The notes under the pieces are model-generated. The model was not told the DNA's origin and searched no databases. It saw only the letters and a list, made by a program, of their open reading frames with translations. A stretch of 64,000 nucleotides of DNA from positions 124,001-188,000 of IMG/VR virus record IMGVR_UViG_3300008952_000002; one strand, given 5' to 3'. Of this stretch, positions 3,627 through 39,012 are shown one piece after another. The stretch comes from a virus. A program made the position numbers and the translations under genes. Within the stretch, counting starts at the first letter, position 1; every line of letters starts with the position of its first letter.

Positions 3627-5252
3627 TTACTTATTACGTTTGTGACTCACATTAGTAACTTTCTTCAGTAGAGGTCCCTTTTTTACAGCCAGTTTATATG
3701 TGGATTGCCCTGCTCTCGGCTGAAAATATAAAGACACCAATACATCTTTTGGATTATTGATATCATAAACTTTAAATCCTACGTTACCCGCGTTTGTCTT
3801 ATATTCCCCGACATCAAAATCTATATCTTTAAGTAGTTTATATAAGTTTTTAAAAGAATGGACACTATAATCGCCGGTTGCCTTAAAATCAACTAACTCT
3901 ACATTATCTTCTCTGGCTGCATGATATTCAACAAAGTTTACCAGTGCTTGTATAAAATCGTATTCTGATTGTGAATCATCGTTTTTAAGCCAAATTTGTT
4001 TAATATTGTTCGCAACTGCGCTGAACATTTTTTGTATACCGGGCCGAACCTTTTTCTGGCTAGCTTGTAATTGGCTGTTTATTGCCTTTTCGATTTGATT
4101 AGAATCCATATCACTAGTGATACCAATGGAATTTAAATACTCTTCTTTTGAAAGTATATTTTCAACATTGATATAGTTTGTACCATCGTCAAACCCTTTC
4201 CATAAAGTTATCAAATTGTTCCACAAATGATCTTTTAGTTTTTCTGCTGTTAGGTTTCCTTGTGGTTTACCAACAAGTGCTTGTTGTCCAATATCTGGAT
4301 TAGTGGCTTTTAATGAAAGATTTGCATATCTAAGTTTTTTTCCGTTAGCAACTATAAATAGGTCTGCTTTAGTACCTCCTCCAGACTGCAAGGAAGCGGC
4401 ACCACCTATACCGTCGGTATCTACTATAATCTCATCAACTTTGAGATTCGTTGCAAAAAATCTAGAGTATTGCGTCATTAATCGAGAATTAGCATAATTT
4501 GCAACTGCCCCAAGCAAGCCTAATAGTTTTGGATTATCTAAATGCTTCCCTTCTCCAATCGCTACTAGTTCCCTAAAAGCCTGTTCTTGAGTTTTAATTC
4601 TCCAAACAATTTTATCTTGTAAATTACTTTTATATTCTGCAGAAGCATACACCACGTCTTCTTTGTGTAATTCTTTTGAATTAATTTTTACTTCTTGACT
4701 ACTACTATTATCTACTGTTAATTTTGAAATTATTTTAAGAATGTCTTTAACTTCGATAGGCTGGACTCCGCCTTGTACACGTTTAGTAAATTTTGCTGTT
4801 AAACCTGCACCTGCCAAGGATTCTGTTAAATTACCAAAATTTGCGATTTGATCTTTACTTTTAATACGATGTGGTTCGGCAAATTGATGATCTTTAAAGA
4901 GATTTGAAATTCTATAATTGTCTAATTGTGTATTAGTTTTAGGATCATAAACCGGTACTACCCAAGATTTACCGTCTAGATAGCCATAGAAGGATCCTGA
5001 TTGAATTGACTTTAAAAGTTTACTTTGGCTGGTGGCATTTGCGTATCCAATGTATATATTATAAGGATACGTTCCGGATCTTGCTTTGGGATAATCATAT
5101 TCTTGCCCACCCAAAGTAGGTGCAATTGTGCCGTCCCATGGAATCTTTCCTTTGACGCGATTTAAAAAAACATCCCATCGTTCTTCAGCAGCTTGATGGA
5201 AATCACCAAACGATAAATTTGCTTCAAATAATTTAAATTCATTAAAACGCAT
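3627..5252 (-). CDS. Leader-bearing virion protein with a PD-(D/E)XK-like segment, candidate packaged nuclease
   Basis: A 541-residue minus-strand protein. It opens MRFNEFKLFE-A, matching the T4 capsid-targeting sequence with a prohead-protease-type cut site L-F-E after residue 10. Mid-protein, a glycine-rich turn leads to KADLFIVANGKKLRYANLSL followed by KAT, where D and the LSLK strand fit the D-x(n)-(D/E/S)-x-K layout of restriction-like nucleases; the middle acidic residue is not canonical. If real, this would be a nuclease packed with the DNA and delivered to the host. The late box lies exactly five bases upstream of its ATG. The nuclease call is tentative; the leader call is firmer. Confidence 0.5.
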   Translation of the reverse strand: MRFNEFKLFEANLSFGDFHQAAEERWDVFLNRVKGKIPWDGTIAPTLGGQEYDYPKARSGTYPYNIYIGYANATSQSKLLKSIQSGSFYGYLDGKSWVVPVYDPKTNTQLDNYRISNLFKDHQFAEPHRIKSKDQIANFGNLTESLAGAGLTAKFTKRVQGGVQPIEVKDILKIISKLTVDNSSSQEVKINSKELHKEDVVYASAEYKSNLQDKIVWRIKTQEQAFRELVAIGEGKHLDNPKLLGLLGAVANYANSRLMTQYSRFFATNLKVDEIIVDTDGIGGAASLQSGGGTKADLFIVANGKKLRYANLSLKATNPDIGQQALVGKPQGNLTAEKLKDHLWNNLITLWKGFDDGTNYINVENILSKEEYLNSIGITSDMDSNQIEKAINSQLQASQKKVRPGIQKMFSAVANNIKQIWLKNDDSQSEYDFIQALVNFVEYHAAREDNVELVDFKATGDYSVHSFKNLYKLLKDIDFDVGEYKTNAGNVGFKVYDINNPKDVLVSLYFQPRAGQSTYKLAVKKGPLLKKVTNVSHKRNK

Positions 5253-5257
5253 AACTG

Positions 5258-5265
5258 TATTTATG
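5258..5265 (-). promoter_or_regulatory. T4-type late promoter box (leaderless geometry)
   Basis: Minus-strand CATAAATA followed by CAGTT and the ATG of the gene ending at 3627. The predicted start site is the A of ATG 5252. Confidence 0.65.
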
Positions 5266-5267
5266 TT

Positions 5268-6581
5268 TTATTGCTTATGAATCTCTTCGTAGATTATAGG
5301 GAAAAGTTCTCTATAATCTGTTCCACGCCTGCGATCCAGTTCTGTTAGATATCTATGTAATTCCTGTTGTGCTTTTTTATTAGGAATATCCGACTCAATT
5401 GCTTTTTTTATTCCTTCAAGATATTCAATGACAGATTCCCTGGTTGTGCTTTCAGAATTTTCGTTTGCAATATTTATTAACATGTCAATTGATTGGTTGT
5501 ATCCCCAATCTAAAATTTTCGGACCAAATATTGAAGGGTGCATCCAGTCTTTACCAGAGGCTTGCATTAAACTAATATTCATACCCCATTCCTTCCCTCT
5601 CGTAATATGTCGTTGATTCCATTCTTGATATTTTTCAATAAGATCAGGCATAGTAAAAGTAGATATAGGAGACCAACATATGTTTATTGTAGTGTCAAGT
5701 CCGGCGTCGATTATATATTTCATGTTTTTATCAAATAATTCTATATCTAGTCCATATCTTACATACTCTGCTTCCTTACCCCAACAATCAATACTGCCGA
5801 CAATATGAGCATTGTGTAATCTACCCTCTTCTAGAAGTTGCTTTAATTTAATAATTTTTGGTTCTATATTATCACTTGATAGATTACTAAAAAAGAATAA
5901 ATCTAAATTTTTAAATTTATCACCATTTCCTGCAATGAAATCTAACAAACGATCAGACTGTGGTTGTATAAAGGGTTCTCCCCCTAAAATGTATAATGAT
6001 CTTAGGTGCTGGCCATTTTTATCTAACCAGTCAAATACTTTATCTAAATATTTAAGTTCTTGATAATTAGGCCGGCCGGCCTTGTGGTCATCAGGATACA
6101 TGAAATCATGTATGTCACCATATTTTTTGTCTTCTGCCTCCCATGTACTACTAAAATACGAACCACAATATGTACAGGATAATTGGCAAAGATTACTGAA
6201 ATATATTTCAAGTTGCGTTGGAGTAACATGAACTGCATTTGGATTATCAAATAATTCAGGCGGAGATGACGGGGCAAATCCCATGTCGTCATGTAAGAGT
6301 CTATCACTCATTCCTCCTGCCTGCTCAATAACTCTACAGTGTTCGCATCCTAACTCTGGCCACTCATCGCGCAACATCTGCAATCGAGCATGTACCTTTT
6401 GATGAGTATTATGAAAATTAAAATCTTCCGTAATTGGATTATGATCACATCTATGGCAACTTGCAGTCGTATTTGTAGTTAAAAATATGGTGCTAAGTGA
6501 CCATTTTAATCTACATTGTAATTTAGACTGTTTAGTGTTAATAATTGATCTATTGTGTACTTGATGTGCATTATCACTCAT
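5268..6581 (-). CDS. Radical SAM protein, twitch/SPASM-like (1 of 5)
   Basis: A 437-residue protein. The [4Fe-4S]-SAM motif C-x3-C-x2-C is CQLSCTYC near residue 131-138, followed by the SAM-binding LYILGGEPF strand (GGE motif). Upstream lie extra cysteine pairs (SCHRCDHN, CEHC) typical of the N-terminal twitch or auxiliary cluster arrangement. Radical SAM enzymes of this type modify peptides, sugars or other small substrates through a 5'-deoxyadenosyl radical; the substrate here is unknown. It sits 5 bases downstream of the gene at 6587-6961 in the same orientation, with a GGTAAA-type weak ribosome binding site. Confidence 0.8.
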   Translation of the reverse strand: MSDNAHQVHNRSIINTKQSKLQCRLKWSLSTIFLTTNTTASCHRCDHNPITEDFNFHNTHQKVHARLQMLRDEWPELGCEHCRVIEQAGGMSDRLLHDDMGFAPSSPPELFDNPNAVHVTPTQLEIYFSNLCQLSCTYCGSYFSSTWEAEDKKYGDIHDFMYPDDHKAGRPNYQELKYLDKVFDWLDKNGQHLRSLYILGGEPFIQPQSDRLLDFIAGNGDKFKNLDLFFFSNLSSDNIEPKIIKLKQLLEEGRLHNAHIVGSIDCWGKEAEYVRYGLDIELFDKNMKYIIDAGLDTTINICWSPISTFTMPDLIEKYQEWNQRHITRGKEWGMNISLMQASGKDWMHPSIFGPKILDWGYNQSIDMLINIANENSESTTRESVIEYLEGIKKAIESDIPNKKAQQELHRYLTELDRRRGTDYRELFPIIYEEIHKQ

Positions 6582-6586
6582 TTTAC

Positions 6587-6961
6587 CTATTTTACCTTTT
6601 GGACTAATTGAATATTTCTACGTTTTGTTCTGCGTTGAGCAAGTTCATTCATACTAACATATGGGCCATGGACTATTTCTACATCTTTCGCCATAAATGT
6701 TTTAATATAAGGTTTGAAAGGTACAAATTCTTTTTTAAGAAAAACGTTAATAGGAAATAATCTATTGGATTCCCACCACCAGACATCTCCCAATTCTAAA
6801 AATTTTTGCTTTACTTTAATGCTAGGAAGCGCATTATAGTCATATATACTAATAATTGATGCATCTTTATTTAAAATAATGCCAATAAACTCTTTATCAA
6901 CATACTTGATATAACTTATAAACGGGTATTTCTCGGTTAGTTCTTGATAAATGTTAGACAT
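6587..6961 (-). CDS. Conserved small T4-like phage protein
   Basis: A 124-residue protein with a central LGDVWWWESNRLFPINVFL motif, then FKPYIKTF and a basic C-terminus (RRTKRRNIQLVQK). The tryptophan-rich core is, as far as I recall, conserved in marine T4-like phages. No enzymatic motif is visible. It is the first gene of the short leftward pair that continues into the radical SAM gene. Confidence 0.55.
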   Translation of the reverse strand: MSNIYQELTEKYPFISYIKYVDKEFIGIILNKDASIISIYDYNALPSIKVKQKFLELGDVWWWESNRLFPINVFLKKEFVPFKPYIKTFMAKDVEIVHGPYVSMNELAQRRTKRRNIQLVQKVK

Positions 6962-6963
6962 AA

Positions 6964-6971
6964 AATAAATA
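6964..6971 (+). promoter_or_regulatory. Late promoter box (AATAAATA)
   Basis: Predicted start near 6977 would give a short leader containing AAAGGA before ATG 6991. Confidence 0.45.
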
Positions 6972-6990
6972 TAGTAAAGGATTTTATAAA

Positions 6991-7761
6991 ATGCTAGTTA
7001 CTACTGTCTATTTATATGACCAAATTATTAATTTGAAAATTAAGGTTGACACTGACAAACAACATTGGGGGTATGAAATGTATAATCATCCGATTAAATT
7101 ATACAAAGGTATTGATAACACAATACAAATACAATTGAAAAACGATAACCAAAAAACTTTAACCATTACAGACAAGACGATTACGTTTAGTATACTAAAC
7201 TCGTCGGACGGAACAAGTGTGCTTTTAAATAAAACAGCAACGATTGTAGATGGTATTAATGGCAAGGCAAAGGTTACTATTACAGAAGGTGATTTGTTAA
7301 ATTTAGATAGCCAATATCTAAATTATTCAGTGAAGGTTGTAGACGGTGAAGAAAATCAAATGATTGGGTACGTAGACGGCGCATATGATGTTATTGGCCA
7401 ATTACAAATCTTAGATGGAGTGTTCCCAGACATAAAAGAAAGTCTAGAATTAAAATTAGCAGACTTCCAGGAAGCAGGCGGTACATATACCAGTGATCCT
7501 TTAGTGGCAGAGTCAAAATTAAACCAAAATACAGGATTACATACTGCCGCATTTTATGTAAATGGTTACAGTGGTGATATCAAAGTACAAGCAACATTAA
7601 ATGATAATGTGGCGCCTGCCGATTATTTTGACATTAAAACTGTAACTTTGGCATCAAAAACCGGCATTGCATATACTAACTGGAATGGAGTTTATAACAG
7701 AGTACGATTTGTACACACACCAACTGCAGGTAGTATGGAAAAAATTCTTTACCGCTCATAA
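6991..7761 (+). CDS. Virion structural protein, beta-rich (baseplate or fibre type)
   Basis: A 256-residue protein with AAAGGA upstream of ATG 6991. The first ~130 residues are repeating beta-strands of the type KGIDNTIQIQLKNDNQKT ... TITFSILNS, the immunoglobulin-like layout of phage baseplate upper (BppU-type) or fibre-attachment proteins. The C-terminal half has further strands (AAFYVNGYSGDIKVQATL). It stands alone with its own late box and is followed by a separate radical SAM gene. A structural role is inferred from composition and layout. Confidence 0.55.
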   Translation: MLVTTVYLYDQIINLKIKVDTDKQHWGYEMYNHPIKLYKGIDNTIQIQLKNDNQKTLTITDKTITFSILNSSDGTSVLLNKTATIVDGINGKAKVTITEGDLLNLDSQYLNYSVKVVDGEENQMIGYVDGAYDVIGQLQILDGVFPDIKESLELKLADFQEAGGTYTSDPLVAESKLNQNTGLHTAAFYVNGYSGDIKVQATLNDNVAPADYFDIKTVTLASKTGIAYTNWNGVYNRVRFVHTPTAGSMEKILYRS

Positions 7762-7795
7762 CATTGTTAAATAATAATGTAATATATAATACGTT

Positions 7796-9538: not shown

Positions 9539-9552
9539 TATCATTATGATTC

Positions 9553-9581: not shown

Positions 9582-9587
9582 AGTACT

Positions 9588-12535: not shown

Positions 12536-12790
12536 ATGAAACGTAAAACTAGAACTATACTTGAAGAATTGAATTCTCTATATAGCGAGAAAAATAAGAG
12601 TGCGATTATTGAAAGTCGCGCTATACATATCATTGACAGTGCAGTAAATCTTATTAATAATATTTATGAAAACTATGACCATGCTACTGCTTCTGAACTA
12701 GAAAGACGACTTCTTAATAGTATACGCGGACAAGATAATAAAAAATTTGTGCGTAGTATTCGCAAGGCGGGCGACAGTGAAACTGAGTGA
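12536..12790 (+). CDS. Conserved small phage protein
   Basis: An 84-residue helical protein beginning MKRKTRTILEELNSLY, then HIIDSAVNLINNI and a basic C-terminus with ASELERRLLNSIRGQD. I recall the same layout in T4-like cyanophages, where the function is also unassigned. ATG 12536 was chosen over the upstream ATT-frame codons because it gives the conserved KTRTILEELN start. The next gene begins inside its 3' end. Confidence 0.55.
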   Translation: MKRKTRTILEELNSLYSEKNKSAIIESRAIHIIDSAVNLINNIYENYDHATASELERRLLNSIRGQDNKKFVRSIRKAGDSETE

Positions 12791-13022
12791 AATATCGCCG
12801 TACGTAGACTCAAAAGTTTTAACTAGGCGGCCGCCCCCACGTTATAAAAGATTCCCACCAGGTAAAACAAGTGGTATTGTAGATCAAATGTCCGGCGAAT
12901 TAGAAAACGTTGTAGATGATTGGATTAAAATAGATTGGGACGATGTTGATGAAGCAACTAAAAAACGTTTTAGTGATGCTATAACAGAATTATTGGATAT
13001 TGTTAATAATGAAGATATCTGA
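12777..13022 (+). CDS. Small acidic protein with GTG start and leader-like N-terminus
   Basis: An 81-residue protein if started at GTG 12777, giving (M)KLSEISPYVDSKV. The first residues fit the MKxxE leader seen across this virus, with a possible L-S-E site, but the match is weaker than elsewhere. The rest is proline-rich and basic (RRPPPRYKRFPPGK) and then acidic (DDWIKIDWDDVDE). It overlaps genes on both sides. An ATG start is not available in a sensible position, so the start is inferred. Confidence 0.45.
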   Translation: MKLSEISPYVDSKVLTRRPPPRYKRFPPGKTSGIVDQMSGELENVVDDWIKIDWDDVDEATKKRFSDAITELLDIVNNEDI

Positions 13023-14352
13023 TCTACACGAAGAACGACCAGCAAGAGCAAAACGTCGCAAGGACCGTGCACCACGCAAAGACCGCGAAGGAAATCTTAT
13101 TAACGAATCTAAATGGCTTTTTGAAAAAGAAGACCGCACACATATGACACACCTTGAAGACTTGGTATTTACGCAAGGATACAAAGGCGCTAAACAAGCA
13201 TTAAACTATTTGGCCAACGTTGCTGGTATGCTTTCCGGACACGGAGGCAAACGTACCAAAATAACAACTAAGTGGGATGGTGCTCCTGCTATTGTTGCTG
13301 GCACTGATCCAAAGGACGGTAAGTTTTTTGTAGCAACAAAGCACGGCTTTTTTAATAAAAATCCTAAATTAAACAAAACACCTAAAGATATTGACAAGAA
13401 CCATTCTGATGCTGGTTTAGAAAAAGGTAAGACAAGAGCAGGCCTGCGTAATAAGTTTAAGATGGCTTTAAAAGAATTGCCAAAATTAAACTTTGATGGC
13501 ATACTGCATGGCGACTTTATGTTTGCTAAAGGTGATTTAAAAACAGTAACTATTGAAGGGGAAAAATATATTGCTTTTAGACCACAAGAAATTACATATG
13601 CTGTCCCTGTCGGCAGTGAATTAGCACAGCAATTACTGGCCGCAGACTTTGGTATAGTATGGCATACGCAATATACTGGCGGGCCTGAGATTAGTGACAT
13701 GCAAACACAATATGGTGTAATAGCACCAGAAGGTAACAAAAAAGTTTGGATGGATGATGCTACGTATAAAGATTTAACAGGCGTTGCTACATTAACTGCA
13801 AGAGAAACAGATTCTGTAAGGCGCGGTGTTGAGAAGATGAGTGATATTTTATCTAAAACAAATGCCTCAAAATTCAACACAATGTTGAAAAATGAAGAGT
13901 TTATGAAATATATTCCCATCTTTATTAACGAAAAGATTCGCCAAGGAGAAGGACAAGTATCCAATGCTACAAATTTCTTGCAAGACTTTATTAACTATTA
14001 TGATGATCGTATGCAAGCCGAAATTGATAAACTAAAAACTGGTATTGAAGGGCCTGCAGGACAGGCGCGTGTACAAAAAATAGAAGCAAACAAACAGTTT
14101 ATCGAAGATAACAGTAATACATTATTAGCAATACTTGGCATATATAAACAAATCGTACAGATTAAAATGATCTTAGTAAACAAATTAAACAAAGTAGAAG
14201 GTATTGGAACATTTTATAAAACAGATGGCGGCTACGAGGTAGCAGACCCCGAGGGTTTTGTAGCAATTGATAGAATAGGTAATGCCGTAAAATTAGTAGA
14301 TAGAATGGAGTTTTCAAGAAGAAACTTTTTAAGTCAAAAGGAGTGGGGTTGA
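13009..14352 (+). CDS. Ligase-like nucleotidyltransferase (DUF6267-like) with capsid-targeting-type leader
   Basis: A 447-residue protein opening MKISDLHE-E, a capsid-targeting-type leader with an L-H-E cut site. After the motif THMTHLED it has TKWDGAPA, with K88-W-D90-G91 matching the K-x-D-G nucleotidyl-acceptor motif of ATP-dependent DNA/RNA ligases and capping enzymes, then DGILHGDFMFAKGD resembling a later ligase motif. Homologues that I recall from cyanophages are annotated DUF6267. It could seal or modify nucleic acid, possibly as a packaged protein. ATG 13009 overlaps the upstream gene; the downstream gene starts on its stop codon. Confidence 0.6.
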   Translation: MKISDLHEERPARAKRRKDRAPRKDREGNLINESKWLFEKEDRTHMTHLEDLVFTQGYKGAKQALNYLANVAGMLSGHGGKRTKITTKWDGAPAIVAGTDPKDGKFFVATKHGFFNKNPKLNKTPKDIDKNHSDAGLEKGKTRAGLRNKFKMALKELPKLNFDGILHGDFMFAKGDLKTVTIEGEKYIAFRPQEITYAVPVGSELAQQLLAADFGIVWHTQYTGGPEISDMQTQYGVIAPEGNKKVWMDDATYKDLTGVATLTARETDSVRRGVEKMSDILSKTNASKFNTMLKNEEFMKYIPIFINEKIRQGEGQVSNATNFLQDFINYYDDRMQAEIDKLKTGIEGPAGQARVQKIEANKQFIEDNSNTLLAILGIYKQIVQIKMILVNKLNKVEGIGTFYKTDGGYEVADPEGFVAIDRIGNAVKLVDRMEFSRRNFLSQKEWG

Positions 14353-15041
14353 TGGGTTTTATTAAAGATTTAACAGAAGCACGAGCACTACGCACCCAGC
14401 GTGGTTTGAATCTTAGTGCTGAACAAGTGGCAGAAAGTATTTACTTGACGGTATTATCATTGCAGGCAATGCGATTTGATCCCAGCACAGCCGCGCAGGC
14501 ATCAGAATATGCTAGAAAAACTTTGCAATATCAAGATTTCAGTAATATTAGATCAACAGCAACAGATTTACACAACTGGGTAGCTGTTTTTAGTAATCCA
14601 GAAAGATACGCAAATCAAATTGGCCCAGTTGGTAGGGCAAGTATGCCTTTATTACAATTTAAAAGGTATCTCAGAGATGTGGCACAAGGTAAGGCTAATC
14701 CGAACTTCGACAAACAATTTTTAATGAGTTTAGAGCGTAATTTAGGTATTAGAAATGGGCAGTATAGTGCTGTAAGAAGATTGTTAAGTGATTGGAATAG
14801 ATTATATGGTACTGAGCGCAAGCAAGGTACTACTAGATTGTTACAGGCATTGAGGGCCAAAACACCTAAAAGTGATTTACGCGGCCCATATGAAGGATTT
14901 ATGCGTAAGGGTGGATATGAAGATAAAAGTGCTAAAGATCCAGAAAAAACAGGCATTAGTACACCAGCAAAAATTGCACTAGCGACAGCCGGTGGTTATG
15001 TGGTAGGCAAAGGAATAGGAAAGTGGCTAGCCAATAAATAA
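14352..15041 (+). CDS. Leader-bearing virion-associated protein
   Basis: A 229-residue protein opening MGFIKDLTE-A, which fits a capsid-targeting leader with an L-T-E site after residue 9. The mature part is basic and helical (ARALRTQRGLNLSAEQVAE...), and near the C-terminus there is a glycine-rich hydrophobic segment, KIALATAGGYVVGKGIG. The start ATG 14352 overlaps the upstream TGA. Likely an internal head protein with the preceding ligase-like gene; function unknown. Confidence 0.55.
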   Translation: MGFIKDLTEARALRTQRGLNLSAEQVAESIYLTVLSLQAMRFDPSTAAQASEYARKTLQYQDFSNIRSTATDLHNWVAVFSNPERYANQIGPVGRASMPLLQFKRYLRDVAQGKANPNFDKQFLMSLERNLGIRNGQYSAVRRLLSDWNRLYGTERKQGTTRLLQALRAKTPKSDLRGPYEGFMRKGGYEDKSAKDPEKTGISTPAKIALATAGGYVVGKGIGKWLANK

Positions 15042-17024: not shown

Positions 17025-18254
17025 ATGAATTACGAAGAATATCGTAGCACTTCAAAGTGGACGAAGGGATTTTGGGATCCTGAATTATCAGCTTTATCTA
17101 AACCGCCGTTATTTCCAGAAGGTGAAGACTTTTCAGGTCCAAATAATATATACGGTTATGAGATTTATAATAATTATATATTAAATCCTTCACGAACTTA
17201 TGAGTTTGATTTTTTTGAGTACGATAAAAAAATAATAAATCCGTATTGGAAAGGCAAAACAGTCAAGTATACCTTAAATGCACACGGATATCGCGGTCCT
17301 AGCTTTAATTCAGATGCAAAATTAAAAATAGTAACCATTGGATGCAGTCACGCATTTGGTTTAGGAATAGACGATAGTAGCACTTGGGCAGAACAACTCA
17401 AAAAATTAATATCTGCTCAATTTAATACCAATGACGTTGAAGTTTTTAACCTTGGTACACCTGGTGCTAGTTCAGATTTAAATACAGTACAATTATATCA
17501 ATTAATTGATATTATAAAACCAAATATTGTGCTGTGGGTACCTCCGGCCTGGAGAAGGTATGATATAGGAATCAATTCGTTACTATCAATAAATTCTGAA
17601 TTTATTGATTTATTTGAAAATGTAATTGAACACGGCACATACACATTGGTGCCGGGTGAAGAATTTTTAGCAATTTACAACAGGGCTGTTATAGATTACG
17701 CAAACACCGGTAGTCTTGATATACAAACACGATATCAAAACTTTTGTAAGAATTTTTCGATAGTTCGTGATTTGTGTGAATATAACAATATAATATTTTA
17801 TTCCTTTGCTAATTTTCAACAGTTTAATGGGTTATTTACTGAATTATGCAAGGCGTATACCTGTTCGTCTGGTATACGGAATTTAATGTATTACCTTAAA
17901 TTTATTAATACACGAGAATATGTTTTAGACAAAGACAACAGATCGTTTATAAATGTCATTGCCCAAGAAGAGGCTATGATGGATTACTTAGTAATTAAAA
18001 CACAAAAAAATGTTATTGGGTATGATTCTAGAAATTTAAAAAAAGCAATGGTGAAAATATATAAAGGTATAACTAGCGGATTATACGACGATTATTTTGA
18101 AGGCGTTGACTCTAACTGCAAACTTCCAAATATGCATCTTAAACTTCTTGCAAGAGACAGCGCCCATAATGGTGATTTTTTTAGTTTTGTTCTTGCTAAC
18201 GTATCTTACAGTGTAATTGAAAAAGACGTAGCAAAATTACTAAATACATTATAA
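17025..18254 (+). CDS. SGNH/GDSL-hydrolase-like protein (1 of 3)
   Basis: A 409-residue protein with SGNH-type blocks: a nucleophile strand VTIGCSHAFGLGIDD, a glycine block VFNLGTPGASSDLN, and a late ARDSAHNGD segment that may hold the catalytic Asp-His. SGNH hydrolases deacylate or deacetylate glycans and lipids; phage versions can act on host surface polysaccharide or decorate a virion. The long N-terminal region (FDPELSALSKPPLFPEG-type) is specific to this protein. It starts 12 bases after the membrane gene and ends overlapping the next gene by one base (TAATG). Confidence 0.65.
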   Translation: MNYEEYRSTSKWTKGFWDPELSALSKPPLFPEGEDFSGPNNIYGYEIYNNYILNPSRTYEFDFFEYDKKIINPYWKGKTVKYTLNAHGYRGPSFNSDAKLKIVTIGCSHAFGLGIDDSSTWAEQLKKLISAQFNTNDVEVFNLGTPGASSDLNTVQLYQLIDIIKPNIVLWVPPAWRRYDIGINSLLSINSEFIDLFENVIEHGTYTLVPGEEFLAIYNRAVIDYANTGSLDIQTRYQNFCKNFSIVRDLCEYNNIIFYSFANFQQFNGLFTELCKAYTCSSGIRNLMYYLKFINTREYVLDKDNRSFINVIAQEEAMMDYLVIKTQKNVIGYDSRNLKKAMVKIYKGITSGLYDDYFEGVDSNCKLPNMHLKLLARDSAHNGDFFSFVLANVSYSVIEKDVAKLLNTL

Positions 18255-18535
18255 TGTATTTAGAAGAACTCTTTGGCATAAACGAAACAAAAATGGCATG
18301 GCAACGCCAAGGAAATAAATTAGTTCGAAAGTATCGTTGCACCGGCGGCAGAAGAAAAGGACGCATTGTGTCCAAACCTGCCCAATGTTTTGCGGCTCCA
18401 GATATCAAAAAGCGTTTTAAATTACGTATGACTAAAGCAAAGTTAGGAGCAAGAATTGCGAGAAAATCTGCTAGAACAAAAAGAACTAATCCGGCAAGCA
18501 TTATGAAACAACGGTTAAATAAGGCCTCCAAATGA
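18254..18535 (+). CDS. Basic internal-head-type protein with capsid-targeting leader
   Basis: A 93-residue, very basic protein. It opens MYLEELFGINE-T, a capsid-targeting-type leader with an I-N-E site. After cleavage the remainder (MAWQRQGNKLVRKYRCTGG ... RKSARTKRTNPAS) is rich in R and K like DNA-condensing internal proteins, and has two cysteines (RYC... QCF). I recall close relatives in T4-like cyanophages. The small size, charge and leader fit a protein packed with the genome. It overlaps the genes on both sides. Confidence 0.6.
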   Translation: MYLEELFGINETKMAWQRQGNKLVRKYRCTGGRRKGRIVSKPAQCFAAPDIKKRFKLRMTKAKLGARIARKSARTKRTNPASIMKQRLNKASK

Positions 18536-19038
18536 AGCTAGAAGAATTATTTACAGAAGCAGTATATCAAATTTCTGGACCTGTTCGAGGCACAACCTTG
18601 CCGCTGGCTTCTAATGCGGGTGATAGTACAGAGACTAGTATAGATCTTAGAGATAAACGTATTGATCTAGATAATCCCAATGGCCCCACTTTAATGAAGA
18701 AAAAGTCGGAAGCGGAACAAAAACAAATAGTGCGCGGTATGGTGCCGGGCCAACAGTTTACGGTAATACCAAAATTAACAGACGTGGCAGAGCTTTGGTT
18801 TGTAGTATCTAAAAGTCCTTCTCGCGTAGTCGCGACACAAGATCCTAGTGCGGACAATCCCAGTACCAAGGAGTTTCTCATAGCAAATTATTATATTGAT
18901 GACGTCAACCAAGATGGCACGCCCAAGATTAGTTTTGCACAAGAAAGAGGAATCGGAGAAAAGTCTAGAGAAATTAATAAATTAGATAGACGTGATATTC
19001 CATTAAATGTAGAAAGTGTTAGTCTGACCAATAAATAA
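18532..19038 (+). CDS. Leader-bearing virion-associated protein
   Basis: A 168-residue protein starting MKLEELFTE-A, a capsid-targeting-type leader (F-T-E site after residue 9). The body is hydrophilic with strands (QFTVIPKLTDVAELWFVVSK) and charged loops (DLRDKRIDLDNPNGP), with no enzyme motif recognised. It starts inside the stop of the basic protein upstream. Probably co-packaged with its neighbours; exact function unknown. Confidence 0.5.
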   Translation: MKLEELFTEAVYQISGPVRGTTLPLASNAGDSTETSIDLRDKRIDLDNPNGPTLMKKKSEAEQKQIVRGMVPGQQFTVIPKLTDVAELWFVVSKSPSRVVATQDPSADNPSTKEFLIANYYIDDVNQDGTPKISFAQERGIGEKSREINKLDRRDIPLNVESVSLTNK

Positions 19039-19047
19039 GAAAAAATA

Positions 19048-19230
19048 ATGTTAATAAACGAATTACTTACAGAAGATTTACGTATTCTAGAAAATTTACG
19101 TAAATGGTATGACGAGCAGTATAGTAAAGGTAAAGCAGAACTCGTTACAAAACAAAACGCCACACCCAATCATAAATCAATTAATGAAAGACTTATTCCT
19201 TATAGTTTACATGGGCGGATCATGCGGTGA
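19048..19230 (+). CDS. Short leader-bearing protein, possibly truncated
   Basis: A 60-residue protein opening MLINELLTE-D, a clean capsid-targeting-type leader with L-T-E. The segment VTKQNATPNHKS resembles ITKQNATKDAP in the leader-bearing protein at 19782, but the frame then stops after an unrelated C-terminus. This suggests a truncated relative of that gene. Most of its 3' half overlaps the next gene in another frame. It may be a remnant rather than a functional gene. Confidence 0.4.
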   Translation: MLINELLTEDLRILENLRKWYDEQYSKGKAELVTKQNATPNHKSINERLIPYSLHGRIMR

Positions 19231-19781: not shown

Positions 19782-20315
19782 ATGAAAATTGCAGAATTAA
19801 CTGAAGCAGTAGGCATTATTACAAAACAAAATGCCACAAAAGACGCTCCAATTGGAAGCGAATATGCTAATGTTAAAAAGTTAGGACTTGGTAGCGGAAA
19901 GCCAAAATTACTTACAAACGAAAGCTTTGTTGACGGTAAGCAGTTTCGCGTAACCAAACAAAAAAATGGTTTTACTGTAGATTTATACGTAGACGGTAAA
20001 CACGCAGGACAATATACACATACACGCAACGAAGATAATGTGCGTAACTTTGCAGAAATATTCCCAGAGTTTCGTAATAAAGGACACGGCGGCATGCTAT
20101 TGTTAAAAGCAATAGCCACAGCAGACGAATTAGGTATGGACTTTGAAGAAGATTCACACAGTCTTACACCTGCTATGAGCAGATTATATGATGAACTAGA
20201 TGGCTCAGGTTTAATTTATGGTGGCGATGGTGCTTGGGCAATTAGTCCAACTGGTGAAGATGCTCTAGACGAATACCTAAGCGAGAACTTTAACATGAAA
20301 GGCGGTAAGAAATGA
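19782..20315 (+). CDS. GNAT-like protein with capsid-targeting leader, candidate injected acetyltransferase
   Basis: A 177-residue protein opening MKIAELTE-A, with the L-T-E cut site at residue 8. The C-terminal ~90 residues have GNAT-like features: the acetyl-CoA loop FPEFRNKGHGGMLLLKAI (R-x-x-G-x-G type) followed by a helix and a strand typical of the fold. A packaged acetyltransferase would be comparable in logic to T4 Alt, an enzyme delivered with the DNA. The GNAT call is moderate because the substrate region is short. A late promoter sits four bases upstream, and the stop overlaps the next ATG. Confidence 0.5.
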   Translation: MKIAELTEAVGIITKQNATKDAPIGSEYANVKKLGLGSGKPKLLTNESFVDGKQFRVTKQKNGFTVDLYVDGKHAGQYTHTRNEDNVRNFAEIFPEFRNKGHGGMLLLKAIATADELGMDFEEDSHSLTPAMSRLYDELDGSGLIYGGDGAWAISPTGEDALDEYLSENFNMKGGKK

Positions 20316-20764
20316 AAATAGCAGAACTGTTTGAAACATTTGACCAACCTTATCCTCTATCATGGACAGGTGAAACGGATGGCTTCCAGGGCCCGGGCCC
20401 CCATGGCGGCATGCGAGCATTTGCCAACTTACCTGACGACACACCACTGCTTATTATGTTCAATCATGAAGGGAACGGGGAATATCAAGTAGAGTTTCAT
20501 AGAAATCATAGTCAAGATGTATCAGGTGAAGGCGATGCTTATAAAATATTTGCTACAGTTTTACACGCTATAAAAAAGTTTATTAAAGAACGTAGTCCCG
20601 AAATGATATTTTTTTCCGGTGAAAAAGGAGATATAGGCGACAACCCAAGCAGAACAAACCTTTATTCTAGAATGGTACAAAAGTTTGCTAGACAGTTAGG
20701 CTATAACGCATACGTTGAAGACCAAGGCGACATGGTGCAGTATGAGTTGAACAAAATAAATTAG
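20312..20764 (+). CDS. Leader-bearing conserved phage protein
   Basis: A 150-residue protein starting MKIAELFE-T, a capsid-targeting-type leader (L-F-E). The rest has a GEYQVEFHRN strand, a helix AYKIFATVLHAIKKFI and a C-terminus RTNLYSRMVQKFARQLGY that resembles conserved marine phage proteins. A GC-rich tract (GPGPHGG) is unusual for this AT-rich genome. The ATG overlaps the upstream TGA. Function unknown; probable packaged protein. Confidence 0.5.
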   Translation: MKIAELFETFDQPYPLSWTGETDGFQGPGPHGGMRAFANLPDDTPLLIMFNHEGNGEYQVEFHRNHSQDVSGEGDAYKIFATVLHAIKKFIKERSPEMIFFSGEKGDIGDNPSRTNLYSRMVQKFARQLGYNAYVEDQGDMVQYELNKIN

Positions 20765-20773: not shown

Positions 20774-21610
20774 ATGAGATTTGCACAAATACAGAATCCT
20801 GACGTAAGTTTAGTTTATGTTAATTTACAAGAGAGTGACTATTTGTTAAAATACACTGATAAGAGAGTATTTAAAAGAGATCTAAATGAGCATGAGCAGT
20901 GGATTGCTGATGGCTTAGTTAAGAAGGATATTCTTAAACGTGTAAAAGTTGAAGGTAAGATAGCGTATATACGCAACTTTAAACTAGATGAGTCTCAAAT
21001 AAAAGTGTCATTATATAAAGATATATTGAACGAAGATCTCAAAAAAACTGCGGCCAGTGTTGCGGCCGCTGGAGCATTGGCGGCAAGTGGCATACATTCA
21101 ATTGATCAAAATACACCACAGCCTGATCTACAAACAAAAACACAAATAACACAAACAATCGAACAAGATCCATATGACAAAGAATTTGGTGATGTAAATG
21201 CTCTTAAGAGTATGATTAAGCATCACGAAGGCAAACGCTTAAAAGTTTATAAAGACACAGTTGGCAAGGACACAATTGGTTATGGACACTTAGTTAAGCC
21301 TGGCGAAGACTTTTCCAAAGGCATTACAGACCAACAAGCAGACGAAATGTTTGACAAAGACTTTGAGCATCATGTAAAGGGTGCAAGAACAACACCTGGT
21401 TATAATTTAGCGGACCAAAGACGCAAACAAGCGATGGTTGATTTGGCTTATAATATGGGTCCAAATTGGCACAAGACATGGCCAAAATTTTCCGCGGCGG
21501 CCGAAAAAGGTGATTGGAAAACTGCCGCAAAAGAACTACAAAATAGTAAGTGGTACAATCAAGTTGGTAATCGTGGTAAAACAATTGTTAACATGATTGC
21601 TGACCAATAA
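20774..21610 (+). CDS. T4-type lysozyme (GH24) with an extra N-terminal domain
   Basis: A 278-residue muramidase that cuts peptidoglycan glycan strands. The GH24 domain spans ~residues 140-278, with E152, D161 and T167 at exactly the T4 lysozyme catalytic spacing (E11/D20/T26). The N-terminal ~110 residues are not part of T4 lysozyme; they contain YKDILNE followed by a small alanine-rich stretch (ASVAAAGALAASG), so an L-N-E site could allow processing. T4's E protein lacks such a domain, so this may be virion-associated rather than a plain endolysin. AGGAAA is a modest ribosome binding site. Confidence 0.85.
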   Translation: MRFAQIQNPDVSLVYVNLQESDYLLKYTDKRVFKRDLNEHEQWIADGLVKKDILKRVKVEGKIAYIRNFKLDESQIKVSLYKDILNEDLKKTAASVAAAGALAASGIHSIDQNTPQPDLQTKTQITQTIEQDPYDKEFGDVNALKSMIKHHEGKRLKVYKDTVGKDTIGYGHLVKPGEDFSKGITDQQADEMFDKDFEHHVKGARTTPGYNLADQRRKQAMVDLAYNMGPNWHKTWPKFSAAAEKGDWKTAAKELQNSKWYNQVGNRGKTIVNMIADQ

Positions 21611-23321: not shown

Positions 23322-23702
23322 ATGCGATTTGCTGAAATTTTAAATTTGACGGAGCAAGGACCTGTAGACGACGACATGGTCGAAGCGTTGATTACCGTAT
23401 TAAATCACGAACTTAAAAGTGCAGATAATTCAGCAGAAATAGGTGATAATGAAATAAGTTTTGTAGAATTAGTTCATACTATGAGAAACTTAGGGCATGT
23501 TATAGATTTTGATGGTTTTAAACAAATTTATGATATGGACCCCGGAGTCCAAAATTTAATTAAAAACTTCGATAAAGATTTCATTACATTAAACACAGAA
23601 GAAGAATTAGAAGTAGATGTTTCGGATGAAGCAAATATTGATGAGCCAAGTCAAAACAAAGTTGACAGTATGGCTAAAAGAGCATTGAAGAAGAGAACAT
23701 AA
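23322..23702 (+). CDS. Leader-bearing acidic protein
   Basis: A 126-residue protein opening MRFAEILNLTE-Q, a capsid-targeting-type leader with L-T-E after residue 11. The rest is acidic (EELEVDVSDEANIDEP) and ends in a basic tail. It follows the core-like gene by one base and precedes a small gene by three bases. Probably an internal or scaffold-associated protein; function unknown. Confidence 0.5.
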   Translation: MRFAEILNLTEQGPVDDDMVEALITVLNHELKSADNSAEIGDNEISFVELVHTMRNLGHVIDFDGFKQIYDMDPGVQNLIKNFDKDFITLNTEEELEVDVSDEANIDEPSQNKVDSMAKRALKKRT

Positions 23703-23705: not shown

Positions 23706-24071
23706 ATGGCATATTTTCCAACGGCATCCCACGCAAGAGATCGCGGACAAGATAATCAGTTAATTGCTCAAGAAATATTAATACTAGAATTACGTGTATT
23801 AGCCGCTGTTGCTAGTAACGCTTTGTCAACAACGGCAACTGATACAACCACAGTTACTATTAATGGCACAGTAGTTACAGGTAGCCCAATGACAAATGAT
23901 GACGCAACAGGTGAAGCGTTTTATAGTGTATGGAAAGGTAATACAGAAAGCACACTACGATCTGAACAAATGTCAGAAGTAATGAGTCATTTTACCAATA
24001 AAAAGTACACAATTGTTAGAAAGAAAAACACCACAACAAATGATACATTTTATTGGGAAATTTCTTGGTAA
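23706..24071 (+). CDS. Small virion-type protein
   Basis: A 121-residue protein starting MAYFPTASHARDRGQDNQL with a helix QEILILELRVLAAVASNAL and a threonine-rich strand region (TDTTTVTINGTVV). It ends with an aromatic strand FYWEISW. The stop codon overlaps the ATG of the next gene. No recognised domain; position and composition suggest a structural component. Confidence 0.45.
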   Translation: MAYFPTASHARDRGQDNQLIAQEILILELRVLAAVASNALSTTATDTTTVTINGTVVTGSPMTNDDATGEAFYSVWKGNTESTLRSEQMSEVMSHFTNKKYTIVRKKNTTTNDTFYWEISW

Positions 24072-24622
24072 TGAGACTTTTCGAATTTGCTAATAGTAAA
24101 GATGCTTTAACACTGTTTAGAACTGTGCAAAACGCAATGGGTGTTAAAACATTTAAAGAATGGCATGGACTTGATGAAGGAGAAGAAAGAGAGTATCGCC
24201 TGGGAGCTGGAGCTACTAAAAAGAAAATATTTCAATTGATTTGGACTAATCCCAAAGGTAAGAAACAAAAAAATTGGGTAAAACAATTAAGTAAAAACAG
24301 TTTTCAACAATTAAAAAAAGATGGTATGCCTAAAGAAACATCAACAAAAACTACAGACAAATATGAAATAATTATACCAGACCCAGGGTTTAAATTAAAG
24401 CCTGCGGTAATGAATAACAAATATGCTGAATTGGAACTTGATGAAGGTAAACTAATGACAGCAATAAAAAATAAGGCATATAAGTTGGCGGCAAAGTATT
24501 ATATACAATATAAAAAACGAGGAGATAATTCTGGAGTAGCTTTACATAAGGCAGCTAGCACTGTTAAAGGTGTTAATGATAAAGATTTACAGTTGTATCT
24601 TACAAAACTAAAACTATTATAA
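24071..24622 (+). CDS. Basic protein with short leader-like N-terminus
   Basis: A 183-residue lysine-rich protein starting MRLFEFANSKD. The start matches the family leader loosely (R-L-F-E), but without a later cut site. The body contains a repeated basic helix region (KNKAYKLAAKYYIQYKKRG) and is lysine-rich throughout, like DNA-binding internal proteins. ATG 24071 overlaps the upstream TAA. Function unknown. Confidence 0.4.
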   Translation: MRLFEFANSKDALTLFRTVQNAMGVKTFKEWHGLDEGEEREYRLGAGATKKKIFQLIWTNPKGKKQKNWVKQLSKNSFQQLKKDGMPKETSTKTTDKYEIIIPDPGFKLKPAVMNNKYAELELDEGKLMTAIKNKAYKLAAKYYIQYKKRGDNSGVALHKAASTVKGVNDKDLQLYLTKLKLL

Positions 24623-34826: not shown

Positions 34827-34847
34827 TAAATAGTTATTATAATACGT

Positions 34848-34855
34848 TATAAATA
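34848..34855 (+). promoter_or_regulatory. Consensus late promoter, leaderless geometry
   Basis: TATAAATA, five bases, ATG 34861. Confidence 0.75.
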
Positions 34856-34860
34856 ACTAT

Positions 34861-35151: not shown

Positions 35152-35152
35152 T

Positions 35153-36865
35153 ATGTCTTTTTTACTACCGGACTTTAATCAACAAAGAGAAAAAGAAAAG
35201 GCGGCGGCAGATGCCGGCGGATGTCAGACTGGCGACAATTGTTTAGGAACAGAAGCCTTAAAGGAAATGTTGAAGCCGATCGGCGATCCTAACAGAGCAA
35301 TACAAATGCCAGCGTCTACACAGGCACTTATTGATGGTATTAAATCAAAAATAGCCGTTACTACTACAATGATAGGGAATTTGGCTAACGTTGAAGCAAC
35401 TGGGCAAGAAGCAGGAATGTTTGGTTGTGCTCAAACACACGCTAACGCAATTCATCAATTAGGAGCAGATTGTGGAATGGTTCCCGATAATATGCAGGCA
35501 TCGTTAGGTAGTTCTACATTAATAGAATCTGTTGAAAATCATGTAAAAAAACTTATACCAGATGATTTATCAAAATTTACAGAAAATTTTGCACAGATAG
35601 AATCTGCTGTAGCACAATCTGCAGATGTAATGCATAACGCTGTGCAAGGTGCAAAAGAAACAGTTTCTTCAGAACTTGGTAAAGTAGCAGGGCAATTTGC
35701 TCAAATGGCTTCTGGTTCTGGAACAGCAGGCGCTGGATTTGCAAATGCCGCATCACAACTTGGCACATTGGCTGGATTACCACTAGATCAAAGTTCTGCA
35801 TCTTTGTTAGAATCAGCATTGGTATCTCCTGTAGTTTCAAATGCTGTTCGTGATAGCGGTATTGATTTAGATACTTTAACAGACAGCCAAGCAACAAGTA
35901 TATTACAAAAAGTTAACACACCGACAGGCATATCAGAAATGAAAGCAGTTTTAGGAACAACTAAAGCGTCAGGCATTACTGATGGCTCGCAGTTTTTGGA
36001 TTTTAAAAAAGCATCAGGTGGTGCTATTGGTACCTCGGAATTCAGCAATTATGTTAGCGATTTTGCTGGAGATTTTGGTGCATTATCTAACGGAGTCATA
36101 GCCGATCTAGGAGATGTGGTTTCAGGATTTGATAATATACCAGCAAATACAGGATTTCCGAGTGGAACTAGTAAAGTTTCAAGTGATTCGGCGACTGAAT
36201 TAGCAAGCCAATTTGGCGGTGGTTCAGGTACAAATGGTGAAATGAAATTTGATGACGTAATGGGAACAGTTATGGGATCAACTGTTAACGCAGACGGCAC
36301 TACTACGTTGAGTCCTTTTGAACAAGCATTGCAAGAATATCAAAATGCGTTAACTGGTTTGGGAGCAGGATCACCAATTGATTACGTTGGGCAAGCACTG
36401 ACTGGAGATTGGTCTGAAGTAACGTCATCTGCAGACGACAGCGCAGAGGATTTAGAAGGGCCTGGTGCGGCCGGTGTAACGATTGCTAACACAGCGGCAA
36501 ATCAGATGTCATTAAATGCTACACTGAACATGTTACTTCCAGATGCTATTGAATCTGTATCATCAAGTGGTGTAGCAAGCGCCGCGGCAAAATTACAGGG
36601 CATAATGGAAAAAGAAACTGCAAACTGGGAAAAATTGAGTCTGCCGTTGTCTGAAGGACCAAAAGTAGTAGAAAATATTCAATCAATGACTAGTTTTGTC
36701 GAGTCGCTTCCGCAAAAATTCCAAGATCCTAAAATAAAAGCTGCGTTGAATGGAGTATTGCAAGGCTCTGCTAAGGCTTTGGCAGATTCAGGCCAGTTTG
36801 AAGAAGCATTACAAAATGCTGTAGGTGTGCCGTCGACTAATAAAATATCACCGCATACATCCTAA
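35153..36865 (+). CDS. Large structural protein near the spike (baseplate-associated)
   Basis: A 570-residue protein rich in A, S, G and Q, predicted to be helical or low-complexity with no signal peptide. It lies immediately downstream of the PAAR tip gene, so a baseplate or spike-associated role is likely. Repeated phrases such as ASQLG, SGTAGAGFANAASQLG and DFAGDFGALSNG suggest an extended, repetitive structural rod. I cannot assign a family. Confidence 0.45.
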   Translation: MSFLLPDFNQQREKEKAAADAGGCQTGDNCLGTEALKEMLKPIGDPNRAIQMPASTQALIDGIKSKIAVTTTMIGNLANVEATGQEAGMFGCAQTHANAIHQLGADCGMVPDNMQASLGSSTLIESVENHVKKLIPDDLSKFTENFAQIESAVAQSADVMHNAVQGAKETVSSELGKVAGQFAQMASGSGTAGAGFANAASQLGTLAGLPLDQSSASLLESALVSPVVSNAVRDSGIDLDTLTDSQATSILQKVNTPTGISEMKAVLGTTKASGITDGSQFLDFKKASGGAIGTSEFSNYVSDFAGDFGALSNGVIADLGDVVSGFDNIPANTGFPSGTSKVSSDSATELASQFGGGSGTNGEMKFDDVMGTVMGSTVNADGTTTLSPFEQALQEYQNALTGLGAGSPIDYVGQALTGDWSEVTSSADDSAEDLEGPGAAGVTIANTAANQMSLNATLNMLLPDAIESVSSSGVASAAAKLQGIMEKETANWEKLSLPLSEGPKVVENIQSMTSFVESLPQKFQDPKIKAALNGVLQGSAKALADSGQFEEALQNAVGVPSTNKISPHTS

Positions 36866-36923
36866 TTACTTTCCCTTCACCACCTGAATAATAAAAAAGA
36901 ATATGTAAAATAATACTCTAACG

Positions 36924-36931
36924 TATAAATA
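36924..36931 (+). promoter_or_regulatory. Consensus late promoter (TATAAATA)
   Basis: Predicted start near 36937; the leader to ATG 36963 carries ACAGGA. Confidence 0.65.
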
Positions 36932-36962
36932 TATAAAACATTATTTACAGGATTTCATAATT

Positions 36963-37772
36963 ATGAAAATTTTAGATATTATTAAAGAGAATGATGAACT
37001 CATTATGGAAAGATGGCCGCAAAAAAGTGGTTCCTCGGACGAAACGCAGTCTGGAGGTCTATTGGGCTGGCTTAAAAAGAAGTTTACTACAGACCCAATA
37101 GCAGACAAAATCAGGCACGGGCACAGAGCAAGAAGAGCTCGCGAAGGCGACCCAACTACAAGTGCTGTAGCAAAAACAGATCAAGCATCAACACCAATGG
37201 ATGCAGGTGAGTTTGCTGGTACACCAGGAGCAAAAACAAAGAAAGCACCACTACCAAATACTCCACCACCTGGAACAGCAGTAGCGGCCAAAGGACCAAA
37301 TACTCCACCACCTGGAACAGCAGTAGCGGTCAAATTACCAAATACTCCGCCACCTGGAACAGCAGTAGCAAAAACAGATCAAGAAGCCTATGCGGGAGAT
37401 CCAAGTGCGGTACAAGACGCAGGATCCGGCGATCAAGAAGCCTATGCGGGAGATCCAAGTGTATTGGACGATACTATTGCTCGTATCAAGGCTAATGCCG
37501 GTATGAAAGACAGCGAATATAAAACGTCCCAAGGTTCTAAGAGAACGGCGCGAGATATGGCTTTAGATAAACAATATCCTTATAAGGCACCTGATGGTAG
37601 ACGTCTAAAATACCCACACGGTGATCTTAGAAACTTGTTTGAACCATCACCTGATACACGTAAAGCAGGTTCAGATGTTGTTGTAAGAGATGGTAAACGT
37701 AAGAAATCCTGGAAAAATCCAAATACTTCAACATCTCAAAACGCTTTTCGAAGTGACGACGATAGAAAATAA
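36963..37772 (+). CDS. Leader-bearing, repeat-rich basic protein
   Basis: A 269-residue protein opening MKILDIIKE-N, a capsid-targeting-type leader with an I-K-E site. It contains three copies of a 14-residue NTPPPGTAVA-type repeat, two DQEAYAGDPS repeats and a block TPMDAGEFAGTP shared with the next gene. The proline/alanine repeats look like flexible linkers; the C-terminus is basic (KRKKSWKNPNTS). Probably an internal head protein evolving by repeat gain. Confidence 0.55.
   Translation: MKILDIIKENDELIMERWPQKSGSSDETQSGGLLGWLKKKFTTDPIADKIRHGHRARRAREGDPTTSAVAKTDQASTPMDAGEFAGTPGAKTKKAPLPNTPPPGTAVAAKGPNTPPPGTAVAVKLPNTPPPGTAVAKTDQEAYAGDPSAVQDAGSGDQEAYAGDPSVLDDTIARIKANAGMKDSEYKTSQGSKRTARDMALDKQYPYKAPDGRRLKYPHGDLRNLFEPSPDTRKAGSDVVVRDGKRKKSWKNPNTSTSQNAFRSDDDRK
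37190..37227 (+). repeat. 38-bp block shared with 38021-38058
   Basis: Identical 38-base segments in two adjacent genes encode TPMDAGEFAGTP, evidence of local duplication or recombination. Confidence 0.8.
37254..37373 (+). repeat. 42-bp tandem repeats (three copies)
   Basis: Copies begin at 37254, 37296 and 37338 and encode NTPPPGTAVA-type units. Confidence 0.85.
37377..37461 (+). repeat. Two direct 31-bp repeats with 54-bp period
   Basis: Identical 31-base segments at 37377-37407 and 37431-37461 encode DQEAYAGDPS. Confidence 0.8.
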
Positions 37773-37784
37773 GGAATAATTATT

Positions 37785-38414
37785 ATGAGAATTGATGAAT
37801 TCGTATTTGGCAAAAAAAACACATCAGACGCAACTGCTAAAGTGAAGCAATATGTTCAGAAAAATAAAGCAGAATTAAATAAAGGACAAGATGAAAAAGT
37901 AGGAGGCACAATTGGTAAAATTGCCGCAGGCTCACTAGCAAGAGATACAAATGTTGCCGCCCAAAGAGAAAGAAATGTTGGCTTAGACGCATTTGGCGGA
38001 ACGGGCGCTGATAAAACACCAACACCAATGGATGCAGGTGAGTTTGCTGGTACACCAGTAGCAAAAGCAAAGAAATCAGCTATAGTTAACAAAAATGTTA
38101 AAGCAGGACAAACTGCTGACGCCGCCGGCGAATTTGGTAGTGCAAAAGCAAAAACAAGCACACCAAAAAGAGCAAGAAGCGTACTACCACGTGCTTCAAC
38201 TTCAAGCGTAGCAGGTACTGCAACAAGCACACCAAAAAGAGCAAGAAGCGTACTACCACGTGCTTCAACTTCAAGCGTAGCAGGTACTGCAACAAGCAAA
38301 GCTGCCCAAGATAAGTTTAACCAAAGACAACCAAAATCTGTTGCAAAGAAAACGAAAAAGCCTAGTGGTACAATAGGTGATATGAGTGATGAGATGTTAA
38401 ACGCTAGAAAGTAA
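37785..38414 (+). CDS. Basic repeat-rich protein with leader-like N-terminus
   Basis: A 209-residue protein beginning MRIDEFVFGKKN, a weaker match to the leader family (R-I-D-E). It carries the shared TPMDAGEFAGTP block and a tandem 23-residue repeat containing KRARSVLPRASTS, produced by a 69-bp DNA duplication. The strong basic charge suits DNA binding inside the head. AAGGAA serves as a ribosome binding site. Function unknown. Confidence 0.45.
   Translation: MRIDEFVFGKKNTSDATAKVKQYVQKNKAELNKGQDEKVGGTIGKIAAGSLARDTNVAAQRERNVGLDAFGGTGADKTPTPMDAGEFAGTPVAKAKKSAIVNKNVKAGQTADAAGEFGSAKAKTSTPKRARSVLPRASTSSVAGTATSTPKRARSVLPRASTSSVAGTATSKAAQDKFNQRQPKSVAKKTKKPSGTIGDMSDEMLNARK
38021..38058 (+). repeat. 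38-bp block shared with 37190-37227
   Basis: Second copy of the direct repeat shared by the two adjacent leader-type genes. Confidence 0.8.
38154..38291 (+). repeat. 69-bp tandem duplication
   Basis: Two consecutive near-identical 69-base units (starts 38154 and 38223) encode the 23-residue KRARSVLPRASTS-containing repeat. Confidence 0.85.
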
Positions 38415-38415
38415 A

Positions 38416-39012
38416 ATGAAAATTACAGACATACTACAAGAAAGCAAAGCAGCCGAAAAAGCAAAACAGGCAATTCTTAAGCGACAAGTTAAATTATTTA
38501 ATAAATTAATTGATAAAGCTGGCGAACTTGAAGAAAAAGGCAAGGTAGCAGACGCCGAAGAGTTAAACAACCAAGCCACTGAAGTAAATGATAAATTTAT
38601 TAAACAAACTGGTATGTCTATTCCTGATTATGAAACACAACAGACCAAAGCAGGCCGTGATGTTAGTGATATGATTAGTCGAATTAAAACAACAAACCTA
38701 AAACCAGGCAAAAGTCCTGCATTAATTTCAAAAGAAGCCGGCGCTACTGCGTTATTACTTCATATTTTAAGAGACGTAGTAGGGCAATTTGATGATGATG
38801 TTGCTAATCTACTGTCAGGCTTCTTATCATCCTCCAAAGCAAATCCACCAACAGCGGACCAAGTAGCCGTTGCTAGAGCAGTGGCAGATAGAGTTAAAGA
38901 ACTTGGCATTGCCAAGGATTATGCTAGTAAAACTGTTGGTAAATTAGAAAAGCATAGTCGCGCATATGACTATGATAAAAATAATCCTTCAGACTTCCGA
39001 GACAAGTATTAA
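38416..39012 (+). CDS. Leader-bearing helical protein
   Basis: A 198-residue protein opening MKITDILQE-S, a capsid-targeting-type leader with an L-Q-E site. The body is mostly helical (AAEKAKQAILKRQVKLFNKL, DQVAVARAVADRVKELG). It starts one base after the preceding stop and ends convergently against the gene at 39009. Part of the same block of likely packaged proteins; no family recognised. Confidence 0.5.
   Translation: MKITDILQESKAAEKAKQAILKRQVKLFNKLIDKAGELEEKGKVADAEELNNQATEVNDKFIKQTGMSIPDYETQQTKAGRDVSDMISRIKTTNLKPGKSPALISKEAGATALLLHILRDVVGQFDDDVANLLSGFLSSSKANPPTADQVAVARAVADRVKELGIAKDYASKTVGKLEKHSRAYDYDKNNPSDFRDKY

Follow-up and report, generated by a model that had tools for sequence, protein, structure and literature searches.

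A probable capsid-targeting leader shared by about twelve otherwise unrelated proteins of a marine T4-type phage

A short N-terminal leader is shared by unrelated proteins encoded in a 64,000 nt stretch of viral DNA (the window; positions 124001–188000 of the 201,690 bp virus record G000), and its presence was confirmed with motifs and a scoring matrix taken from other phages. Its layout, two hydrophobic residues three apart followed by (L/I)-x-E, fits that of the T4 capsid-targeting propeptide, and about twelve tagged proteins are well supported in this phage. Judged by analogy with T4, the leader is very probably a propeptide of the same kind, which would bind the prohead core and be cut by the prohead protease, the bodies being kept in the head and some of them ejected.

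The source is a marine phage with the gene content of the T4 type: it carries an S77 protease, a scaffold-like gene in the gp22 position, an alignable gp23 and a DUF6267 protein. Homologues of the last occur in 414 phage records, mostly cyanophages. The closest gp23 relatives found in the genome collection (74%) belong to contigs from two MAGs. Gene calling relied on a simple custom script, so individual starts may be wrong; the set comprises 218 calls over the whole record, 90 of them in the window. The 14 N-termini listed in an earlier note on this DNA translate as it described, starting with ATG in 13 cases and with GTG at 12777. The tagged proteins and weaker candidates are as follows (window coordinates; ↓ follows the E of the leader; PSSM, a matrix trained only on leaders from other phages' contigs and applied to the 218 gene N-termini).

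3627..5252, minus strand: 541-aa protein, leader MRFNEFKLFE↓A, PSSM FDR 0.025; body weakly like phrog_3560
13009..14352, plus strand: DUF6267 protein, leader MKISDLHE↓E, PSSM FDR 0.02; PF19782 from residue 44
14352..15041, plus strand: 229-aa protein, leader MGFIKDLTE↓A in the T4-like register, found by the T4-derived pattern, PSSM rank 16th; body related to proteins of the jumbo phages Atu_ph07, Phosso and SCTP-2
18254..18535, plus strand: 93-aa very basic protein, leader MYLEELFGINE↓TK, then a conserved M-A-W body start
18532..19038, plus strand: 168-aa protein, leader MKLEELFTE↓A (FTE, non-canonical), PSSM FDR 0.028
19048..19230, plus strand: 60-aa protein, leader MLINELLTE↓D, PSSM FDR 0.002
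19782..20315, plus strand: 177-aa protein, leader MKIAELTE↓A, PSSM FDR 0.03; body possibly GNAT-like
20312..20764, plus strand: 150-aa DUF6934-like protein (PF22028, E 4.8e-8), leader MKIAELFE↓T, found by the T4-derived pattern, PSSM FDR 0.18, rank 14th
23322..23702, plus strand: 126-aa acidic protein, leader MRFAEILNLTE↓Q, PSSM FDR 0.013
36963..37772, plus strand: 269-aa repeat-containing protein, leader MKILDIIKE↓N, PSSM FDR 0.010
38416..39012, plus strand: 198-aa protein, leader MKITDILQE↓S, best PSSM score in the genome
37785..38414, plus strand: borderline protein, MRIDEFVFGKK without a nearby (L/I)xE, PSSM FDR 0.086
24071..24622, plus strand: weak candidate, MRLFEFANSKD without a nearby (L/I)xE, PSSM FDR 0.16, rank 12th
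20774..21610, plus strand: lysozyme-domain protein (PF00959, E 2.1e-17), a weak candidate absent from the earlier list and lying mid-cluster among tagged genes, MRFAQIQN, PSSM FDR 0.11

The bodies behind the leader give different family matches or none, and the earlier note had called them otherwise unrelated. A GNAT fold for 19782 is at most tentative, the match to Acetyltransf_1 (E 0.031) falling below the curated cut-off and the structural model being of low confidence (pLDDT 43). PADLOC gave no match, and NCBIfam a single one, weak and unhelpful. The neighbouring proteins 36963 and 37785 (window 36963–38414) have the repeat PMDAGEFAGTP in common; 36963 also carries PNTPPPGTAVA three times, and 37785 a 24-residue tandem repeat.

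The earlier note had proposed testing the leader for enrichment against shuffled starts. A pattern modelled on its description, with the second residue widened and [LI]xE added, matched 11 of the 218 genes where 0.6 were expected (0/2000 shuffles, maximum 5). Independent motifs were used as well, the first pattern having come from these same proteins. A regular expression drawn from T4 propeptides found 12 matches among the 218 genes against 3.3 expected, and 8 against 0.87 when K/R was required at position 2. Ranked by PSSM, the top ten of the 218 are all window proteins, which has a chance probability of about 1e-4 given the share of genes in the window. Eight have an FDR of 0.03 or less (38416, 19048, 36963, 23322, 13009, 19782, 18532 and 5252 minus), every one from the strong list of the earlier note. 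That list had claimed a common leader for 11 proteins, and the other three find support elsewhere, 14352 and 20312 in the T4-derived pattern and 18254, which scores poorly by itself, in a family that carries leaders. Other T4-type phages, too, show strong enrichment of such leaders.

It is extremely improbable that the similarity stems from chance or from biased N-terminal composition in an A+T-rich genome. Loose forms of the pattern do give 3–4 chance matches per genome, and the examples in the earlier note had been chosen by eye, but column shuffles preserving the composition of every position never reached the count for the K/R form (0/3000), and a matrix built from other phages places ten window proteins at the top. 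For the strong set this explanation is essentially refuted, but it may hold for 12777, for 24071 and for part of the matches beyond the window. Recently duplicated gene starts do not account for the leaders either: those of 19782 and 20312 are alike yet use different synonymous codons.

The weaker matches proposed earlier fared unevenly: 37785 is borderline and 24071 weak, and 12777 is unsupported as a leader protein, having no (L/I)xE and a later start in our own gene calls. The L-x-E or I-x-E with which, according to the earlier note, the leader usually ends is present within 12 residues in 10 of the 14 listed proteins, the exceptions being 18532, with FTE, and 24071, 37785 and 12777, with none nearby. 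The strongest additional match beyond the window is at G000 108205 (MKSLKQYITEA), and those at G000 72900, 112854 and 200629 are tentative leader candidates.

The hydrophobic pair of the window leaders lies mostly at positions 3/6, with the same spacing as the 4/7 of T4; both registers occur. Leaders on one contig tended to agree in register: 60 of 75 pairs did so, against a permutation mean of 41.7 (0/5000), and after a post-hoc filter 46 of 48 pairs from different families did (0/5000, or 39/5000 with classes permuted within families). The registers are thus lineage-specific and need not have co-evolved with a receptor, since related contigs share ancestry. The leader also behaves as a module, being present or absent before the same body. 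In the very basic 18254 family, whose members are 51–62% identical to 18254, a conserved M-(A/V)-W opens the body. The segment immediately ahead of it keeps its leader character, although its sequence is variable and its length ranges from about 11 to 25 residues. Eight sequences of the family bear leaders, which are variable, and a homologue in the jumbo Salicola phage SCTP-2 (54%) is without the leader segment. Nearly all DUF6267 homologues on contigs have a leader directly before a conserved KNxHxEHxED start, in two registers, e.g., MKKFSTYLAE↓AKNTH and MKFLEISKP; the DUF6267 protein of cyanophage S-SM1 itself shows no clear leader at its N-terminus.

A gp21-like protease and a major capsid gene, which the earlier note had suggested looking for in the rest of the genome, are both encoded. 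The prohead protease (gp21 family; Peptidase_S77, E 1.5e-26, G000:74066-74485) retains the HP and GVSSRG motifs of the catalytic region and adjoins the genes in the gp22 and gp23 positions. S77 was found in 7/7 T4-type records checked and was absent from lambda. The gp23 homologue can be aligned to gp23 of T4 and S-SM1, and its maturation site, YLTE↓A, aligns with FLTE↓A of T4; gp22 carries 20 [LI]xE sites, several with Ala next. Alanine likewise follows the (L/I)xE of leaders more often than internal sites (31% vs 8%, P 5e-10; 20% vs 7%, P 0.002, with DUF6267 left out). Together with the enrichment, the protease and the aligned gp23 site support the earlier reading of the leader as one of the T4 capsid-targeting type. 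A docking peptide for a target outside the head (tail, baseplate, membrane or replication compartment) seems quite unlikely: the published S-SM1 proteomics, which covered whole particles, would accommodate it, but the likeness to T4 propeptides, the preference for E↓A and the encoded protease all speak against it. Applied to T4 itself, the pattern selects IPII, IPIII, Alt and gp24, every one a head protein.

The leader might instead recruit proteins to the prohead core, many of which would serve there as parts of the assembly core and, like T4 gp67 and gp68, be cut to pieces and lost from the head before the DNA enters, so that they are never delivered. This is an unlikely explanation, though less so than the preceding ones. 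A leader-like start, MILLELFGQLEE, on the small gene that lies between the portal and protease genes (G000 72900) would suit it, as would the acidic nature of 23322, a common trait of core proteins. However, leader bodies hold few additional (L/I)xE sites (median 0.7 per 100 aa vs 1.2 in other genes, P 0.02, and 5.1 in gp22), they are mostly basic (median pI 9.3 vs 5.3, P 8e-4), and enzymes occur among the tagged bodies of related phages. Retention of the bodies in the head is the preferred reading; the T4 internal proteins are also described as basic (PMC9026906).

The T4 late-promoter sequence is TATAAATA (PMC2984593). The window has 14 plus-strand TATAAATA sites, a total not above chance, yet 12 of them precede a gene start by no more than 70 nt (P 1e-11). 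One is 32 nt upstream of 36963, and another is only 5 nt from the start of 19782. These window sites are probably T4-type late promoters.

Under the T4-kind reading, the tagged proteins would be made late, and their amphipathic first six or seven residues would bind the protein core of the prohead, via the hydrophobic pair, before DNA is packed. The S77 protease would then cut most of them after (L/I)-x-E, freeing bodies that stay with the DNA in the head. Very basic bodies would probably bind DNA, and others, of the sort that are enzymes in related phages, would probably be ejected into the host with the genome. Targeting and cleavage are drawn here from the T4 analogy, and injection goes one step further. 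The ten N-terminal residues of T4 IPIII are enough for packaging, with positions 4 and 7 important in targeting and positions 8 and 10 in processing (PMC9026906). T4 mutants blocked in processing are still packaged. Because of this last result, one may speculate that 37785 and 24071, which have the hydrophobic pair and no nearby (L/I)xE, might be targeted yet uncut.

In the DUF6267 protein (13009), a disordered linker of 35 residues, which contains additional INE and LFE sites, follows the leader; in the structural model, pLDDT is below 50 for residues 1–44 and most of the remainder is folded. The invariant KWDGAP and the C-terminal EGFVA...VKLVDR resemble nucleotidyltransferase motifs I, IV and V. 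Assignment to the RNA/DNA ligase superfamily was rejected, as the resemblance is confined to these motifs (KWDG, EGFVA, VKLVD) and a profile search returned no ligase; a Foldseek search of the model against PDB gave nothing significant, with T4 Rnl1 at E 0.39.

Two other loci of this genome were noted. A tmRNA gene at window 47809–48136 matches tmRNA_permuted (121.8 bits) and alpha_tmRNA of Rfam, and ARAGORN gives its tag as ANDDYYDYALAA; marine phages, those of the Melnitz type among them, are known to carry two-piece tmRNAs (PMC9004378). A giant gene lies on the minus strand beyond the window (G000:38001-51589), where an open frame extends over at least 4529 codons and past the end of the sequence covered.

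The tag extends beyond this phage. The 80 viral contigs surveyed around DUF6267 homologues hold 809 ORFs, in which the T4-derived pattern occurs 121 times against 11.1 expected, and 66 times against 1.5 with K/R at position 2. Up to 41 of 321 families bear the pattern, some of them by chance. In a set of 54 proteins, most of them with leaders, the bodies that could be recognised comprise, among others, four NT5C-type nucleotidases, three P-loop kinases (an adenylate kinase among them), two cytidylyltransferase-like proteins and PAP2. The close relatives of the window DUF6267 and 38416 proteins in viral_contigs come from nearly identical contigs and are evolutionarily uninformative. The nucleotidyltransferase T4-GC190 of S-SM1, whose N-terminus is MKKFSAFLNEAE, was found among virion proteins by whole-particle proteomics (Sullivan et al. 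2010, PMC3037559), and 70 of its 74 contig homologues bear a leader, a count biased by MKKFS being one of the two search patterns. The expanded set is not universal, since the S-SM1 genome as a whole is not significantly enriched (4 vs 2.0 expected, P 0.15). HTVC008M gave no match to the strict pattern, its leader-like starts being seen by eye only, and lambda, a small control, gave none in 37 called genes. In Agrobacterium phage Atu_ph07, four neighbouring genes (L192:4678-8055) have leader-like starts: MRLFQLLE, on a weakly GNAT-like protein, and MRWHQLIE, MKWHQLTE and MRWDQLTE, on similar proteins with an LYRG motif and no Pfam match.

The window leaders resemble T4 capsid-targeting propeptides in being short N-terminal peptides on unrelated proteins, with hydrophobic residues three apart, an (L/I)-x-E end and an S77 protease, and the bodies resemble T4 internal proteins in being basic and, as the promoters suggest, late-made. 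They differ in that the pair is mostly shifted by one residue, and packaging and cleavage have been demonstrated in T4 only. T4 Alt, an ADP-ribosyltransferase that is packaged and injected, is a precedent for an injected enzyme, and its leader, MELITELFDE, closely resembles MLINELLTE and MKLEELFTE of the window; unlike Alt, none of the window's tagged proteins was recognised as an ADP-ribosyltransferase. In SPN3US and phiKZ, a prohead protease processes many head proteins, which leave the head along with the DNA on ejection (PMC5694885, PMC10052503); these phages belong to a separate giant-phage lineage, and the likeness noted here is one of head-protein processing. In phage P1, N-terminal residues of DarB direct the protein, and a reporter, into the capsid, but the Dar N-termini have no consensus (PMC9024508), unlike the window leaders. 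Such an expanded tagged set was not described in the open literature searched, most subscription papers lying outside that search, and its novelty is provisional.

On a broader view, which we consider about evenly poised between right and wrong, phages of the T4 superfamily would use one portable tag, in lineage-specific registers, to load and inject dozens of unrelated proteins, including nucleotide-handling enzymes, the tag being gained and lost and the arsenal readable from sequence. T4 tags a handful of proteins and this phage about twelve with good support; among those tagged in the wider group are kinases, nucleotidases and nucleotidyltransferases. If the view is correct, the registers would offer a route to the receptor of the tag in the prohead core, and the contents of T4-type heads, hence the candidates for the first proteins injected, would be predictable from N-termini alone, in uncultured phages too.
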